From Candidatus Micrarchaeota archaeon CG1_02_47_40 (GTDB taxonomy: Archaea; Micrarchaeota; Micrarchaeia; Anstonellales; CG1-02-47-40), in assembly GCA_001871475.1 (NCBI GenBank), contig MNVE01000003.1:1-64000 (forward strand): a stretch of 64,000 nt of DNA, in the 5' to 3' direction. The notes below the pieces were generated by a model. It had not been told where the DNA came from. It worked only from the letters and a program-made list of their open reading frames with translations, and did no database searches. Each line of letters opens with the position of its first letter. Position 1 is the first letter of the stretch. This document shows positions 10,429-48,810 of this stretch, piece by piece. The position numbers and the translations under genes are program-made.

Positions 10429-11040
10429 ATGACAAATTTAAAATTCGGAAAGGAAGTAGATAAGATACTAACTAGATTATCCGTCGAAATGCCCGCTGCC
10501 AGCATCACAGCTTGGGACTTAACTCCATTTATGCCTTACCTGCATAACTGGAGAAAGAATATCATCTTCATAGAGTGCGATAGGGTGGCAATAGAAACAA
10601 TTGTAGAAACTCTATCTAAAGATTATCCAAAACACGAGATTTACGCCGGGATTAAGAAGCCTATGCTGAAAATCCGGATAAACAACAAAGAAGCCGCAGT
10701 CGTTATTATAGCCGGAGAAGGCAAAAATAAGAGAGAGATTGAGGGCAAATACCCTAAGTTAGAAAAATGCCTCGTCGACTTGCTATTCTATGCTAAAAAC
10801 GAGTTATTGCCCATATCTCTAACAGACATTCTGGACTTATGGAGACATTACTTAACTACAAAAGGACTGCTGCATTTCAATGAGCTCTATCGCTATTCAC
10901 AAAGGCGTTATTTGGGTTGGTTTGTAAGCATATTTGCTTATGAACTATCAAAAAAAACCAAGTCTAATGCGGACACCAGACACTGCAAAACCGGTTTAAA
11001 AAATATGGAACTCATAAAAACGGTGGTTCAATTTGAATGA
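10429..11040 (+). CDS. Putative antitoxin partner of AbiEii-like toxin (AbiEi/DUF6577-like)
   Basis: 203-aa ORF overlapping and directly upstream of the AbiEii-like ORF. Confidence 0.5.
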   Translation: MTNLKFGKEVDKILTRLSVEMPAASITAWDLTPFMPYLHNWRKNIIFIECDRVAIETIVETLSKDYPKHEIYAGIKKPMLKIRINNKEAAVVIIAGEGKNKREIEGKYPKLEKCLVDLLFYAKNELLPISLTDILDLWRHYLTTKGLLHFNELYRYSQRRYLGWFVSIFAYELSKKTKSNADTRHCKTGLKNMELIKTVVQFE

Positions 11041-12274
11041 AGAGTTTGAACGAAGAAGCAAAGCCGTATTTGAAAAATTGCGAATTCTGTCAAGGATAAC
11101 CCCGGATATCGTATTTCTTGGTGGAAGCGCAATCCAAGCTTTGCTTAAAACACCAAAAAGACTAAGCATAGACCTCGATATTGCTTATTCTGGAGATGTT
11201 CAAAAACTAATCAAAGAACTAGAAAAAGAAGGCTGCGAAGTGAAACAACGAAAAAGCCGCGCACCGGATTTCACGTTTTACAATATTTCTAAAAACGGCA
11301 TATTGGTAAAACTCGATATAATCAAAATCTCCATTCCAGAAACCGAAAAACATACGATACGAGACTTTCAAGTTTTCACCCCCAACCCAAGCTATTTTCT
11401 TGCATCCAAACTATCTGCATTGGCTTTGGATACAATTGGCAGGCTTGAAGAAGAACCACAACAGATACTAAAGGATATTTTTGACATAAACTGCATTTTG
11501 GATTTACAGCCCGATCTTGGACAATTCCAAAAAAATTGGCGGCAAATAATATCGGATCAAAATAAATTAAGAAAAACAAGGTTCACGGAACATGAATGTT
11601 TATTCAGTGCACAAAAAACACTGTTGAAATGCATAGATGCCGCACCACTTCCCGAATTTTTCATATCGCCACATGCACTCGGAAGCTTTCAAGACATGCT
11701 GATTGACGGCAAAATATCCCGCAAGGTTATCGCAGTCATGGCCGCACGGGCTTTGGCTCTATCCACCAATACGACTAGACAATTCTATGAAATCGAAAAA
11801 AGCGTTTTAGAAGAAGCAAAAAGCGCCTCAAAACTTGAAGAAGCATCAAAAGCATTAATAAAAAGAAACTACGCCAGTGCCAAACAAATAACCGCAATAA
11901 AAACGGTAGCGCCTGTCGCATTAATGTTCTTGATTCACCATGCCCAGAGGATTTCCTCTATGGAAGGAGCTTGGATTAAGGCCGCTGTTGAGCACACAGT
12001 TCTAGAAATAGAATATTACAGCGCGAAAACAAAACATGAACTAACAAAAAGAAAGGTCAATCCTGATTTTATCGGTCCAGATCGTCGCGGAAGAAATAAC
12101 GGATTTTGGACTACATTTGACCATTTACGAAATGAAGGACCTCGTTGTTTCAAACCAGAAACGATATTAAGATGGTCTGCAACCGCCGAGCGTTTTGAGC
12201 CATCCAAAGATGGTAGATGGAAAGAACTTTTGATAAAATACGCGCAATTAGGGTTAGAATTTAAATCTTTTTAG
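11033..12274 (+). CDS. Nucleotidyltransferase, AbiEii/AbiGii toxin family-like
   Basis: FLGGSAIQALLKTPKRLSIDLDIAY: GGSA...D-x-D nucleotidyltransferase core. Confidence 0.75.
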   Translation: MNEEFERRSKAVFEKLRILSRITPDIVFLGGSAIQALLKTPKRLSIDLDIAYSGDVQKLIKELEKEGCEVKQRKSRAPDFTFYNISKNGILVKLDIIKISIPETEKHTIRDFQVFTPNPSYFLASKLSALALDTIGRLEEEPQQILKDIFDINCILDLQPDLGQFQKNWRQIISDQNKLRKTRFTEHECLFSAQKTLLKCIDAAPLPEFFISPHALGSFQDMLIDGKISRKVIAVMAARALALSTNTTRQFYEIEKSVLEEAKSASKLEEASKALIKRNYASAKQITAIKTVAPVALMFLIHHAQRISSMEGAWIKAAVEHTVLEIEYYSAKTKHELTKRKVNPDFIGPDRRGRNNGFWTTFDHLRNEGPRCFKPETILRWSATAERFEPSKDGRWKELLIKYAQLGLEFKSF

Positions 12275-14126: not shown

Positions 14127-15185
14127 ATGGACATAGAAAGCAAAATTTCCGTAGTTACGCGCAAGCCTGCCTGCGAGGTGCTGACAGAAGACGAGCTGCG
14201 CGAAGTTTTCCAAAATTATTCGCAGCCAAAGCACTACATCGGGTTTGAAATCTCGGGCTTGGTGCACATAGGCAGCGGCCTTGTAACGGCGGTAAAAGTG
14301 CGCGACTTTCTTGAGGCGGGCATAAAGCCCACAATATTCCTTGCCGATTACCACGCGTGGATAAACGGAAAATTGGGAGGGGATTTGGAAAAGATACAGT
14401 ATGTTGCAAAAGGGTATTTCAAAAGCGCCTTCGTTTCGCTCGGGCTTGACGAAGAGCGCGTAAACTACATTCTTGCAAGCGAAATTTACAACGGAGATTA
14501 TTGGAAGGATGTTCTGAATGTATGCAGCAATACTACAATTGCGCGCATGTTAAGATGCACAACGATAATGGGCAGGACGCAGAAAGAAGCAGTTTCCTCC
14601 TCTTCCATAATATACCCTGCAATGCAGGCGGCGGACATATTCCTTCTTGATGTGCAGATTGCGCACGCAGGAATAGACCAGAGAAAGGTGCACATACTAA
14701 CGAGGGAAATCTGCGAGAAGATGAAAAGGAAAAAGCCAGTGGCGCTTCATCACAAGCTGCTTTCAGGATTGCAGGGACCGCAGAAAATGGGATTAGATGA
14801 GAATGAACAGCTTGATTTGGAAATCTCCTCAAAAATGAGTAAATCAAAACCCGCAAGCTGCATATACATACATGATTCCGAAGAGGAAATAAAGAAGAAA
14901 ATAGGCGGAGCATACTGCCCGCCGAAAATTGCAGAGGCAAATCCGATTTTAGATATTTGCGAGAATTTGATTTTGAGAACTGAAAAGGACAAGCTGAACA
15001 TACTCCGCCCAGCCAAGTTTGGCGGAGATGCAGAATACGCGGATTTCGCTTCTCTTGCAAATGATTATTCGGAAGGAAAACTCCACCCTGCTGATTTGAA
15101 GGGGGCGGTTGCGGAATACCTTATTGGCGTCTTCGCCCCATCAAGGGAATATTTTGAAAAGAATAAAGAGATGCTGAGAATATAA
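14127..15185 (+). CDS. tyrS: Tyrosyl-tRNA synthetase
   Basis: Class I signatures: GLVHIGSG, KMSKSKP. Confidence 0.9.
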   Translation: MDIESKISVVTRKPACEVLTEDELREVFQNYSQPKHYIGFEISGLVHIGSGLVTAVKVRDFLEAGIKPTIFLADYHAWINGKLGGDLEKIQYVAKGYFKSAFVSLGLDEERVNYILASEIYNGDYWKDVLNVCSNTTIARMLRCTTIMGRTQKEAVSSSSIIYPAMQAADIFLLDVQIAHAGIDQRKVHILTREICEKMKRKKPVALHHKLLSGLQGPQKMGLDENEQLDLEISSKMSKSKPASCIYIHDSEEEIKKKIGGAYCPPKIAEANPILDICENLILRTEKDKLNILRPAKFGGDAEYADFASLANDYSEGKLHPADLKGAVAEYLIGVFAPSREYFEKNKEMLRI

Positions 15186-15198
15186 GACGGGCGAAAAA

Positions 15199-15867
15199 AT
15201 GTCAGAAGATTATTTTAAAAAAACAAAAGAAAAGTTTGAAGCCAAAATACCGAATTACGGCACCGACTCATTCAGAAAAATGCGGGATGCGATCAGAAAG
15301 GGGCTTTCAAGACAAGAAAACGAACACATGCTTCGAATAAGGCGCCTAAAAACACTGTTGCTTGGCGATTGGACCGATGAAGAAAAAAAGGCACTCTTGC
15401 ATAAAATAAAAAACACTCTTTTGGAAAATGGTTATTATGCTCAAACCATAGATAATTATCACGACCCAAAGCGAGTAGGTCACTATAACCTAACGCAAAT
15501 CCTAGAGTATTGCTGCGTTAATCATCAGCTTATCGTTTTTATTGATGGCGAGGGCCAAGGAACCCTAACAGAACAGAATTATCTAGCTGAAAATTATATC
15601 TTCCACGGTAAAATGCTGTTTTTCATTGAGGAATCAAAGTTCAATAAATTTAAGCAAAATCCAAATGAATATTTCATGAGTTTTCCCGCGATAATCAGAT
15701 ATAAAAAAACCGAGTTAATAGACGACGTTCTGATTTATGTTGCTTTAAGGATACATAGATTGGCGAATATAATCCAAACCCAGACCAAACACGGCAGAGG
15801 CATCAGCAATAGTAAATATGTTCCGTGGAAAGAACGCCTTTCAAAACCGAAAAGTCTTAAAGTATAG
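15199..15867 (+). CDS. Hypothetical protein
   Basis: Intact 222-aa ORF; ELIVFIDGEGQG-like central segment (QLIVFIDGEGQGTLTEQNYLAENYIFHGKMLFFIEE). Confidence 0.6.
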   Translation: MSEDYFKKTKEKFEAKIPNYGTDSFRKMRDAIRKGLSRQENEHMLRIRRLKTLLLGDWTDEEKKALLHKIKNTLLENGYYAQTIDNYHDPKRVGHYNLTQILEYCCVNHQLIVFIDGEGQGTLTEQNYLAENYIFHGKMLFFIEESKFNKFKQNPNEYFMSFPAIIRYKKTELIDDVLIYVALRIHRLANIIQTQTKHGRGISNSKYVPWKERLSKPKSLKV

Positions 15868-15911
15868 CAATCTATAACATTGTAAGGTTATTTAAAGAAT
15901 AAGTCCCTTAG

Positions 15912-16193
15912 GTGGTGCGTATGGGCAACGAAGATTTGAAAAAAGAGTTTCTTGAGGCAAGTCGCTTAAAAGACATCGTTTTGGAAGATAAAAACATTGA
16001 CATCCTGCTTTATCTTGCCAAATATAATCCTAACGTGCAGAGAGAGAACATAATAGAAAACTTCGGTGCCGATTCAATAAAAGGGCTTGAAGATTTAAAA
16101 GGGGCAAAATTAGTCCGCGAATTAAGCGACGGTATTTCTCTGACTGAAGAGGGCATCTTTCATGTAGACGGGCTTCTATCAATTGTTTTATGA
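15912..16193 (+). CDS. Small winged-helix-like protein
   Basis: 93-aa ORF; wHTH-like pattern ENIIENFGADSIKGLEDLKGAKLVRELSDGISLTEEG. Confidence 0.55.
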   Translation: MVRMGNEDLKKEFLEASRLKDIVLEDKNIDILLYLAKYNPNVQRENIIENFGADSIKGLEDLKGAKLVRELSDGISLTEEGIFHVDGLLSIVL

Positions 16194-16307
16194 AATAAGG
16201 AAATTCTCTCAGAAGAACAACGAGGTGAGGTTTTGTGTAAAAACCCCTCAAAATGAGCGACTTCTTACACAAGACAAAACCTTTTTACACTAAAACAAGT
16301 CTGAAAA

Positions 16308-16475
16308 TTAATAATTGACCTTCTTTATCAGAATTCTTCCGTCCTCATAAACCTCAACACCGACATAATCCTTGTCCGTCCAGTGCAGGAGCTTGACTTC
16401 CTTTGTCAAAATAAGCCCCACACCTCCACCCACACGCGCCAATTTCCGAATCTTCTTTTCCAGTAGTGCAGTCAT
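16308..16475 (-). CDS. Small AbrB/SpoVT-like protein (not in ORF track)
   Basis: Manual translation MTALLEKKIRKLARVGGGVGLILTKEVKLLHWTDKDYVGVEVYEDGRILIKKVNY*. Confidence 0.55.
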   Translation of the reverse strand: MTALLEKKIRKLARVGGGVGLILTKEVKLLHWTDKDYVGVEVYEDGRILIKKVNY

Positions 16476-16578
16476 ATACTGGACTTCTTAGTTTCTGCAT
16501 TTTAAACAGCCGCTAAAGAAACTATACTAACTGTAGTATTTATAAGAGTTGAGACTGCCAATTTAAACAGGTGATGGG

Positions 16579-17328
16579 ATGTTTAGCAACGGTAAGATCA
16601 GGCTTGTTTTTCTTTCCTTGATAATTGGAACATTACTTTTTGGATGCACTGGAGTATCTTCTAAAAATGACTATTTGCCGGTAGACGAGGAAAAACTCAA
16701 CATGACCCTTAAGATTGGGGATTTGGAAAATCGGAGTATTGTGCTTAATCGTGAGATTGCCTTGCTTCAGGGAAACATCAGTGTACTTGAAAACGCAAAG
16801 GAGACTGATGCCAAACTTAATATTGAATTTACGAGAAAGTATGTATTGGCCTTGACAGACCTCGGCGCTGGGGAGGAATATTTTTCTCAAACTCTTAGCA
16901 CTTATGAAACAGTGGATACGTATATCTCAGATAATCCAAACCAATATGACTACAGCAGTGCTTACGATGCATTTACTACAATTAAAGACTGGTCAAACAA
17001 AGCAAGAAAAAATTATTTATCTGCACAAGAACGTCTGACCGGCATTCAAAATCAAACCCAAGACAAGCAGCTTAGACAGGACATTCAGGATAGACTTGAA
17101 CTAATCAGAATTTTGCTTGAACAAAATACCCATACCTATAATCAAGCCAATTATCGCCAGTTGGAACTTATGGAAATCAATGAAGGAGGTTCAACTACAA
17201 ATTCTGAGGAGTATAACAAAAAGCTTAATGAGGATATTGTCCAATACAACCTCAATGTGCCTGCATATATTAATGCACGGGAAAAGATAGATGTCAATTG
17301 GGGACAAGATTGGCATACAACCCAATAA
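16579..17328 (+). CDS. Putative lipoprotein, coiled-coil
   Basis: Signal peptide with lipobox LLFGC; 249 aa. Confidence 0.65.
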   Translation: MFSNGKIRLVFLSLIIGTLLFGCTGVSSKNDYLPVDEEKLNMTLKIGDLENRSIVLNREIALLQGNISVLENAKETDAKLNIEFTRKYVLALTDLGAGEEYFSQTLSTYETVDTYISDNPNQYDYSSAYDAFTTIKDWSNKARKNYLSAQERLTGIQNQTQDKQLRQDIQDRLELIRILLEQNTHTYNQANYRQLELMEINEGGSTTNSEEYNKKLNEDIVQYNLNVPAYINAREKIDVNWGQDWHTTQ

Positions 17329-17478
17329 GGCCAATCTCTTGGCGAGATTGGGTTTTTTTTATTTATTCAACGGGCTATAACCATTTAAATCATCCTCCAA
17401 AATTCCGAATTTTTACACAACCGCTTTGCTTTTTACACAAAGAGAATTTTCTACACAAAGCCACGAGGTGCTAAAGAT

Positions 17479-19530
17479 TTAAGAACCCTCTTCTGAAATG
17501 CCATTAAATTCGTTTATCTTTCCAATTAAACTGTTGTATTCATAGACATAATTGTTATACGCGTAAGTGTCATATGTTTGTGCCATCTTTTCCTTAAGTT
17601 CATCTGTCCTCAAAACCCAATAATCATACTGTTTAATCTCATCGATGTCTTTTTCAATGCTTTCAAGTGTTTTTCCATCCGAAACCGGAATTATTAGGGG
17701 TTTGCTGTGCAATATAATTCCACCATAATATTCATCAGGTATTTTTGTTATGTGGACAGGACCTCGCGATACTTCAACAAAACAGTAATCTGAACCATAT
17801 AACGCATATTGAGCGGGGCATTTTATTCCAACTGCCATATGGTCTTCCTCTTCATACTCAAATAACGCAACACCGTAACCAAGTTCTTTAAGAAGAGCCG
17901 TACCAAGCAAAGATTTATCCATGCAAACTCCTCTATTCAAAAAGAGAGTTTCATACGGATAGTTGGCTTGTGCTGTCAGGTCGTTCATCTTTGTATAATC
18001 GTACGGCATTGATGCAACAAACGATAGTAATGCCCTTGCTTGCTCATCTTCGTCACCTATGTTTGATTTTACATAATCAACTATTGAAATAAGTGTTTCA
18101 TCTTGTATCGGTTCGCTGATAAACATATTCCAATATTCGGTTTCCCAATTGGACGCAAGTTGTCCGTAATACGAATAACTTTTAGGCTGTTCCGCATAGT
18201 AATCATAAATTCCCGTGTATAATATAATCGACAATGGTGAAGTCGGATTGGCACCCCAAGTAAAAGTCCTGTTTATAGGTCCATATTCAAACTTCGAGAT
18301 GCATCTCTCGCCACTGTTTATCAAATCACTCGGACAACCGCACTCAGAAGCTTTCTCTATCAAAGTTCCGCTCAAACAATAGAATGGTTTTTCTAGAGTG
18401 CATTCTCCGTAAATAGTGCCATCTTCGCATCTCTGAATCTTTTTGCAGTCGTTATCGTCTTGCATATAATCATTGGAGCAACCGCACCTTTCCGAATTAG
18501 GCAATAACTGTCCTCCATTATTGCAATAGTAAGGTTTATTCTTTGAGCATTCTCCTGAAAAAGTTCCATCCGTGCAGGTTATGTTCCATATGCAGTCTGT
18601 TCCATTACTACGATAACCCCCTCCACAGCCGCAGACGTTTGGTTTTTTTATCAAATTTCCATCATTGCAGTACCAAGGCTTGTTTGTTGAGCACTCATTA
18701 TGATTAATAATAATATCTTGAATGTCGCCATTTAGTTCATTGATTCGGATATTACAGTTTTTGTAAGAATAAAACGAAGTCCAGAAACCTCCGACGGAAT
18801 CGGCTAATTTCGGTAAAATATCAGAACTATAAAGATAAGTCAAGACACCATACGCAACAGCCAAGAAAATCAGTATCTTAAAAAGCGCCCATAAAGCATT
18901 GGTCGCATGTTCGATCCCTTTTGCTAAATGGTAACAGAAACTGTTAATCTCTTCATAAATCCATCTTGCTGGTTTCATTATCAAAAAATCCAACAATACT
19001 ACCAATGTCCCTCCCAGCCAAAAAAATGGAAAGAGAATCAGTTCCATCACTTTTCTAAACCAATGCTTAATTGTGCCAGTCAGATTGCTTTTCGGTTCTT
19101 CATACTTTTGTTCGTATGGTTTGTATTGAGAGTCTGCATGTTTCTGATGATCATCACGATAATCATCTCTCTTAAAATCCTCTCGCGCAAATTCTTCATA
19201 CGGCTCTCTCTTTCGAGGACGTTCAGCCAGTTTCAGCATATCCAATGCAAGTTTTGCCTGTTCTCTCTCTTCCTCTTTTCTTCGTTCATATTCCTCAACA
19301 TAAGCATAACATGGATGGGTATCCTCCCTCCGCCAATTTTGAAGCTGCTCGTAGCTTGCATGACTTATATTAATCACGCTTGGGGGTGTCGGAGCTAGGT
19401 GCTCTTGACAAAAATAGCCTCTGCAATACGGGCATTGTGTAGTTTGACCTTTATACTTACAGAGATGGTATCCGCACTCTTGGTCTTCGGAAAAGTCACA
19501 TTTCGTTTTCCTGCTTCGACGTCTACCCAC
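17479..19530 (-). CDS. AN1-like zinc finger / TM / Cys-rich / transglutaminase-like protein
   Basis: N-terminal CDFSEDQECGYHLCKYKGQTTQCPYCRGYFCQEHL; TM segments; Cys-rich repeats; C-terminal NRGVCMDKSLLGTALLKELGYGVALFEYEEEDHMAVG. Confidence 0.7.
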   Translation of the reverse strand: MGRRRSRKTKCDFSEDQECGYHLCKYKGQTTQCPYCRGYFCQEHLAPTPPSVINISHASYEQLQNWRREDTHPCYAYVEEYERRKEEEREQAKLALDMLKLAERPRKREPYEEFAREDFKRDDYRDDHQKHADSQYKPYEQKYEEPKSNLTGTIKHWFRKVMELILFPFFWLGGTLVVLLDFLIMKPARWIYEEINSFCYHLAKGIEHATNALWALFKILIFLAVAYGVLTYLYSSDILPKLADSVGGFWTSFYSYKNCNIRINELNGDIQDIIINHNECSTNKPWYCNDGNLIKKPNVCGCGGGYRSNGTDCIWNITCTDGTFSGECSKNKPYYCNNGGQLLPNSERCGCSNDYMQDDNDCKKIQRCEDGTIYGECTLEKPFYCLSGTLIEKASECGCPSDLINSGERCISKFEYGPINRTFTWGANPTSPLSIILYTGIYDYYAEQPKSYSYYGQLASNWETEYWNMFISEPIQDETLISIVDYVKSNIGDEDEQARALLSFVASMPYDYTKMNDLTAQANYPYETLFLNRGVCMDKSLLGTALLKELGYGVALFEYEEEDHMAVGIKCPAQYALYGSDYCFVEVSRGPVHITKIPDEYYGGIILHSKPLIIPVSDGKTLESIEKDIDEIKQYDYWVLRTDELKEKMAQTYDTYAYNNYVYEYNSLIGKINEFNGISEEGS

Positions 19531-48691: not shown

Positions 48692-48810
48692 TGCCGCGTG
48701 CCGGATTTGAACCAGCGACACTGCGGTGCCAAAACCTCAAAAGGGAATTTTAGCAAACCCCCCTTGGAAATTCTTCAGCCGCATGCTCTCCCAGGCTGAG
48801 CTAACGCGGC
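48692..48810 (-). tRNA. tRNA-Phe(GAA) with canonical anticodon-loop intron
   Basis: Acceptor GCCGCGT/ACGCGGC+A, GCTC-AGCCTGGGA-GAGC, loop CTGAAG|A, GCTGGTTCAAATCCGGC; 45-nt intron 48728-48772. Confidence 0.92.

Follow-up and report, generated by a model that had tools for sequence, protein, structure and literature searches.

A predicted archaeal membrane protein combining an AN1-like zinc finger, cysteine-rich repeats and a transglutaminase-like domain

The Gene and Its Domains

The window analyzed here, a 64,000 nucleotide stretch from the 1.15-Mb assembly (93% complete) of Candidatus Micrarchaeota archaeon CG1_02_47_40, contains on its minus strand an open reading frame of 683 residues with a GTG start codon, preceded 5 nt upstream by a Shine-Dalgarno-like GAGGT (Table 1). 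The encoded protein has an AN1-like zinc finger in its N-terminal part, then a membrane segment, three repeats with six cysteines each (CRRs), and, C-terminally, a transglutaminase-like (TG) domain. This anatomy, proposed in a first-pass annotation as an AN1-like finger, a membrane part, Cys-rich repeats, and a TG core with a downstream histidine, was borne out by the open reading frame, Pfam, the zinc ligands, the repeat scores, and hydropathy. Searches of NCBIfam with the 683-residue protein, and of PDB sequences with either this protein or a profile of its TG domain, gave no match, and a Pfam scan of the protein found no rhomboid domain.

Table 1. Positions in the window of the gene, its domains, and residues of predicted function
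Feature	Position	Strand	Basis
Gene: AN1-like finger, membrane anchor, three CRRs, TG-like domain	17479..19530	-	ORF list, Pfam, full-length relative L090
AN1-like zinc finger with long insert, aa 19-74	19309..19476	-	Ligand conservation, hhalign
First hydrophobic stretch, aa 160-187, topology uncertain	18970..19053	-	Hydropathy; gap in L090 alignment
Transmembrane segment, aa 208-235	18826..18909	-	Hydropathy; aligns to single TM of L090 and L007
Cys-rich repeat 1, aa 259-317, six Cys including C259	18580..18756	-	Repeat comparison; model pLDDT
Cys-rich repeat 2, aa 318-366, six Cys	18433..18579	-	Repeat comparison; model pLDDT
Cys-rich repeat 3, aa 367-414, six Cys	18289..18432	-	Repeat comparison; model pLDDT
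TG-like domain, DUF553 type, with C-terminal helical pair, aa 415-683	17482..18288	-	Pfam, AlphaFold2 model, Foldseek
Cys536, predicted nucleophile, helix N-terminus	17923..17925	-	Invariant 29/29; helix begins at Cys536 in model
His564, predicted catalytic, strand start	17839..17841	-	Invariant 29/29
Glu586, predicted third triad member, just past next strand	17773..17775	-	Invariant 29/29
Cys571, predicted disulfide partner of Cys583	17818..17820	-	Both or neither of the pair in 26 of 29 relatives
Cys583, predicted disulfide partner of Cys571	17782..17784	-	Both or neither of the pair in 26 of 29 relatives

The finger has the pattern C-x4-C-x8-C-x2-C-x4-C-x2-H-x27-H-x-C, and its eight ligands (Cys19, Cys24, Cys33, Cys36, Cys41, His44, His72, and Cys74), which follow the AN1 order, are invariant across 20 related AN1-like domains. 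It departs from the AN1 norm in its first spacing (x4) and in the 27-residue loop ahead of the last H-x-C; this long-insert variant, with varying loop length, occurs in about 30 Micrarchaeota proteins. The N-terminal AN1 zinc pattern claimed earlier is thus upheld by all eight ligands and their order, but not by the Pfam zf-AN1 cut-off: PF01428 scores 13.4 bits over residues 19-47 (cut-off 27.9), because the long insert before the last ligand pair splits the profile. For the match between the finger profile and a canonical archaeal AN1 profile, which spans the 19 central columns, hhalign gives a probability of 96%, and the canonical profile itself retrieves true AN1 structures from the PDB, e.g. 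CUZ1 (PDB 5ij4). AlphaFold2 models the finger at low confidence (pLDDT about 44-69) and so does not confirm the AN1 fold; on the basis of ligand conservation and the profile match, the finger is read as an AN1-like variant with a putative AN1 fold and two predicted Zn sites. Most of a tree of AN1 domains, built from 30 rows and about 90 columns, is unresolved; in it the finger falls closer to those of CAP/SprT-bearing proteins and of the related locus L060, with the L071 finger in the other half (86/99), a placement weakly suggestive of domain shuffling. Fusions of the long-loop finger to SprT/WLM-like metallopeptidase-like domains occur as well (L062, L063, L066, L069, L070, and L079-L081; Pfam matches mostly weak), some of these proteins having transmembrane (TM) segments and L079 also a cupredoxin.

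The ubiquitin/stress connotation attached to the finger by the first-pass annotation gained no support: a search of the organism's own 93%-complete genome found no ThiS-family or SAMP-type ubiquitin-like protein. Eukaryotic AN1 fingers have been studied as proteasome and p97 adaptors. Proteasome subunits are encoded in the genome, so a proteasome-adaptor role for AN1 is possible.

The three Cys-rich modules align locally with scores of 95-107, compared with best scores of 44-50 in 500 shuffles, which confirms the earlier claim of a threefold repeat and shows them to be true repeats; the AlphaFold2 pLDDT over the three is mostly 80-95, and 70-90 over most of repeat 1. No Pfam family matches the repeat in the proteins scanned. 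Many exported proteins of the order (L006, L008, L012, L014-L017, L021, and others) contain its motif, C-DGT--G-CS--KP-YC--G-L------CGCP-------C; in them the repeats often sit behind lipoprotein signals and beside CAP and trypsin-like domains, and the repeats are also present in Archaeoglobaceae and Diapherotrites relatives.

The GVCMDKSLL motif with a downstream histidine, read initially as a TG-like core, belongs to a domain that passes the Pfam DUF553 (PF04473) cut-off of 20.5 bits (24.4 bits for the whole protein, 26.6 bits for the isolated domain) but falls below that of Transglut_core (PF01841; 17.0 bits, cut-off 23), and by these scores it is closer to DUF553 than to the related Transglut_core, the family for which the earlier annotation had proposed a search. 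DUF553, the archaeal transglutaminase-like superfamily, is family 3 of Makarova et al. (1999), as cited in PMC10318531. The protein resembles members of this superfamily in its Pfam match, Cys-His-acid triad, and archaeal distribution, but differs in having Glu as the third triad residue and in adding an AN1 head and Cys-rich repeats to what in the Pfam family is the catalytic domain only.

The AlphaFold2 model of the TG domain (pLDDT 92, pTM 0.89) has a TG/papain-like fold. Among the Foldseek matches to the model are 3ISR and 3KD4, both cysteine proteases, as well as PNGase and LapG, a protease of the periplasm; for 3ISR and LapG the probability is 1.0, yet the TM-scores to known enzymes are low (about 0.3-0.47). 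Cys536, His564, and Glu586 are conserved in all 29 relatives from archaea and Moranbacteria, and their context in the model is canonical for the triad, with Cys at a helix N-terminus and His and Glu at successive strands. Of the Cys-His-Asp triad anticipated earlier, the Cys and His (His564) are therefore present, but the third residue is Glu586 rather than Asp. Cys571 and Cys583 are both retained in 22 of the 29 relatives and both missing in four, with a single one in three Methanosarcina rows; such largely joint presence or absence is as expected of a disulfide.

Relatives and Their Distribution

Related loci were not found with the protein as sole query, but were recovered with a narrower alignment as query; the viral contigs searched contained no relative. 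The fusion that the first-pass annotation called unusual is not a one-off, since among these loci the AN1-membrane-TG architecture recurs across archaeal phyla and is accompanied by close versions with swapped domains. In L090, from another Micrarchaeota family, an AN1-like finger, one TM segment, three repeats, and a TG domain align end to end with 36% identity to the window protein, and L149, from a euryarchaeal genome of the phylum of Methanoregula, has a canonical AN1 finger, a TM segment, one repeat, and a TG domain. An AN1 finger, TM segment, and TG domain are also combined in L086 (Archaeoglobaceae), L088 (Nanoarchaeota), L092 (Bathyarchaeota), L100 (Pacearchaeota), L165, and L172, and, with three AN1 fingers, in L099 (Methanoregula). 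The distribution across DPANN that was to be checked accordingly extends to Micrarchaeota, Nanoarchaeota, and Pacearchaeota, and it reaches beyond DPANN to Bathyarchaeota, Archaeoglobaceae, and methanogens. In L060/L089 the AN1-TM-repeat-TG architecture is interrupted by one in-frame TGA (L089:1626-1628) in an otherwise complete gene of another Micrarchaeota genome, where a nonsense mutation, a sequencing error, or readthrough is possible.

On the TG tree, the AN1 label requires seven changes; well-supported branches force at least three of these, and the AU test rejects a grouping of all AN1 proteins in one clade (p = 3.8e-5). The AN1-TG link has therefore been gained or lost repeatedly. The TG family is patchy in Micrarchaeota (10/301 genomes) and common in the phylum of Methanoregula (124/345), and the gene has a GC content of 39%, compared with 47% for the window. 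This combination of patchy distribution and low GC fits horizontal transfer better than a chance juxtaposition or artefact, and horizontal spread of the family is likely from these sequence data. The AT-rich patch itself (15000-19500, 37-39% GC compared with 47%) contains both the gene and a convergent lipoprotein-like neighbor (16579-17328, with no informative Pfam match) and may be a recent acquisition. No neighboring gene is conserved between the window and the relatives, save in the close pair L084/L085 and for scattered unrelated matches. Archaeal-type TG domains are also present in bacterial CPR genomes (the Moranbacteria bins containing L087 and L102), where they group with those of two further bacterial bins in a supported clade, and a transfer between domains of life is possible for them.

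Predicted Topology and Activity

We propose, with a probability of about 0.62, that the protein is a cysteine hydrolase anchored in the membrane and held outside the cytoplasm on a stalk rich in disulfides, and that its AN1 head serves in the cytosol to tether or regulate it. The finger, with its two predicted Zn sites, would lie in the cytosol and be followed by a single membrane crossing, and the three repeats, which are probably disulfide-bonded, would form a stalk outside the cell bearing the TG-fold enzyme. Using the Cys536-His564-Glu586 triad, the enzyme would hydrolyze a surface or exported protein, as a peptidase or amidase, via a thioacyl intermediate, and the AN1 head would most likely tether or regulate the protein from inside by binding a putative cytosolic partner. 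The surface-modifying membrane enzyme envisaged at first pass hence stays the best reading, with a topology deduced from relatives and a catalytic activity predicted from the sequence and model.

Hydrolysis is the most likely activity in view of the structural neighbors of the model and the known archaeal TG-fold endoisopeptidases, which bear on it indirectly. A cell-surface transglutaminase of unchanged topology, which would cross-link surface proteins at their Gln and Lys side chains (or amines) rather than hydrolyze bonds, is a less probable alternative. Its triad would be of the same type; the periplasmic TG domain of TgpA from Pseudomonas is active as a transglutaminase in vitro (PMC3507681), and a review of papain-like enzymes words DUF553 as a transferase (PMC10318531). 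However, those Foldseek matches that are named for function are proteases or glycanases, and PeiW and PeiP, the archaeal TG-fold enzymes of known activity, act as endoisopeptidases (cited in PMC3507681). The sequence does not discriminate between the two activities. LapG, which is a TG-like cysteine protease of the periplasm, and TgpA, whose periplasmic TG domain is part of a membrane protein, resemble the proposed hydrolase as extracytoplasmic TG-fold enzymes at the membrane, LapG with low structural similarity scores and TgpA by description only, but they are bacterial and have neither an AN1 head nor Cys-rich repeats.

The membrane region noted earlier consists of two hydrophobic segments of similar strength. 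Were both to cross the membrane, as a hairpin, the TG domain would be cytosolic and would act inside the cell, an arrangement for which the similar strength of the segments speaks but which we consider unlikely. The first segment is missing from relatives with a single TM, and the anchor of L007 consists of the second segment alone. In the single-TM relatives L088, L092, L099, and L100 there are 4-7 Lys/Arg in the 15 residues before the TM segment and 0-2 after it, and L086 has seven before its second TM segment and three after; by the positive-inside rule this bias is evidence for AN1 inside and TG outside. Relatives with lipobox-type signals (L084, L085, and L097, the same proteins as in the same-order genomes G013, G077, and G078) share the CRRs and the TG domain, which also supports an external C-terminal part. 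The 21 ectodomain cysteines (18 in the repeats, one conserved pair, and the catalytic residue) likewise fit an oxidizing outside by their parity. AlphaFold2, which renders residues 154-235 as a single long helix, does not decide the topology. The AN1-in/TG-out orientation of the window protein itself is therefore deduced from comparison with its relatives.

Alternatively, the TG-like domain and repeats might bind partners, with catalysis not the point. The same anchor and repeats bear CAP domains in L007 and L046, and the role of a CAP domain is often binding, not cleavage; strict invariance of Cys, His, and Glu over archaea and Moranbacteria would, however, be unexpected of a dead enzyme, and we regard a purely adhesive role as rather improbable. 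Chance juxtaposition or an assembly artefact uniting unrelated genes, to which the AT-richness of the gene and the patchiness of the family might point, is rejected as very improbable because L090, from another family, and the euryarchaeal L149 share the architecture.

AN1-Headed Membrane Proteins with Other Outer Domains

In other relatives the TG domain is replaced. Of three such proteins from Micrarchaeota, L046 has three AN1-like fingers, one TM segment, three CRRs like those of the window protein, and a CAP domain, whereas L064 and L082 consist of a finger, a TM segment, and a CAP domain. In L007, two repeats and a CAP domain accompany a TM segment that aligns to that of the window protein, and an AN1-like finger lies in a different frame; this offset between the finger and the TM-repeat-CAP part (L007/L045, G038:C69) suggests a frameshift or an assembly error. 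One Bathyarchaeota genome encodes a TG, a CAP, and an M50 protein, each headed by AN1 (the latter two being L135 and L143). These AN1-CAP and AN1-M50 proteins share with the window protein an AN1 head and a membrane part, and in L046 and L007 also the Cys-rich repeats, but their ectodomain is a CAP domain or their enzyme an M50 metalloprotease.

AN1 in archaea often heads membrane proteases. Hydrophobic segments were present in all of the 30 best euryarchaeal zf-AN1 proteins with loci, and AN1-rhomboids make up the top euryarchaeal zf-AN1 matches scanned (8/8). Like the window protein, the AN1-rhomboids join an AN1 finger to a membrane hydrolase, but theirs is an intramembrane serine protease and that of the window protein a predicted tethered extracytoplasmic cysteine enzyme. 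A literature search of limited coverage turned up no account of membrane proteins of the AN1-TG or AN1-CAP type, nor of the long-loop AN1 variant or the Cys-rich repeat; each part is of a known kind (AN1 finger, DUF553/TG).

That archaeal AN1 is repeatedly fused to membrane-tethered hydrolases whose outer domains vary suggests that the finger has an older or parallel use as a transmembrane adaptor. In a broader and doubtful extension, AN1 would generally serve archaeal hydrolases of the membrane and surface (rhomboid, M50, TG-like, and CAP-bearing) as their head in the cytosol, coupling events outside the cell to a shared partner, e.g. the proteasome or a Cdc48-type ATPase, with the window protein as the TG branch. 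The AN1-headed archaeal membrane proteins provide a concrete set in which to search for such partners, and the unnamed Cys-rich repeat decorates many exported proteins of Micrarchaeota, a phylum whose surface biology is almost unknown.

Elsewhere in the window, Rfam reports a 119-base tRNA at 48692-48810 that is unreported by ARAGORN and probably contains an intron, and the protein encoded at 11033-12274, within an AT-rich patch, resembles by eye an AbiEii-type nucleotidyltransferase.
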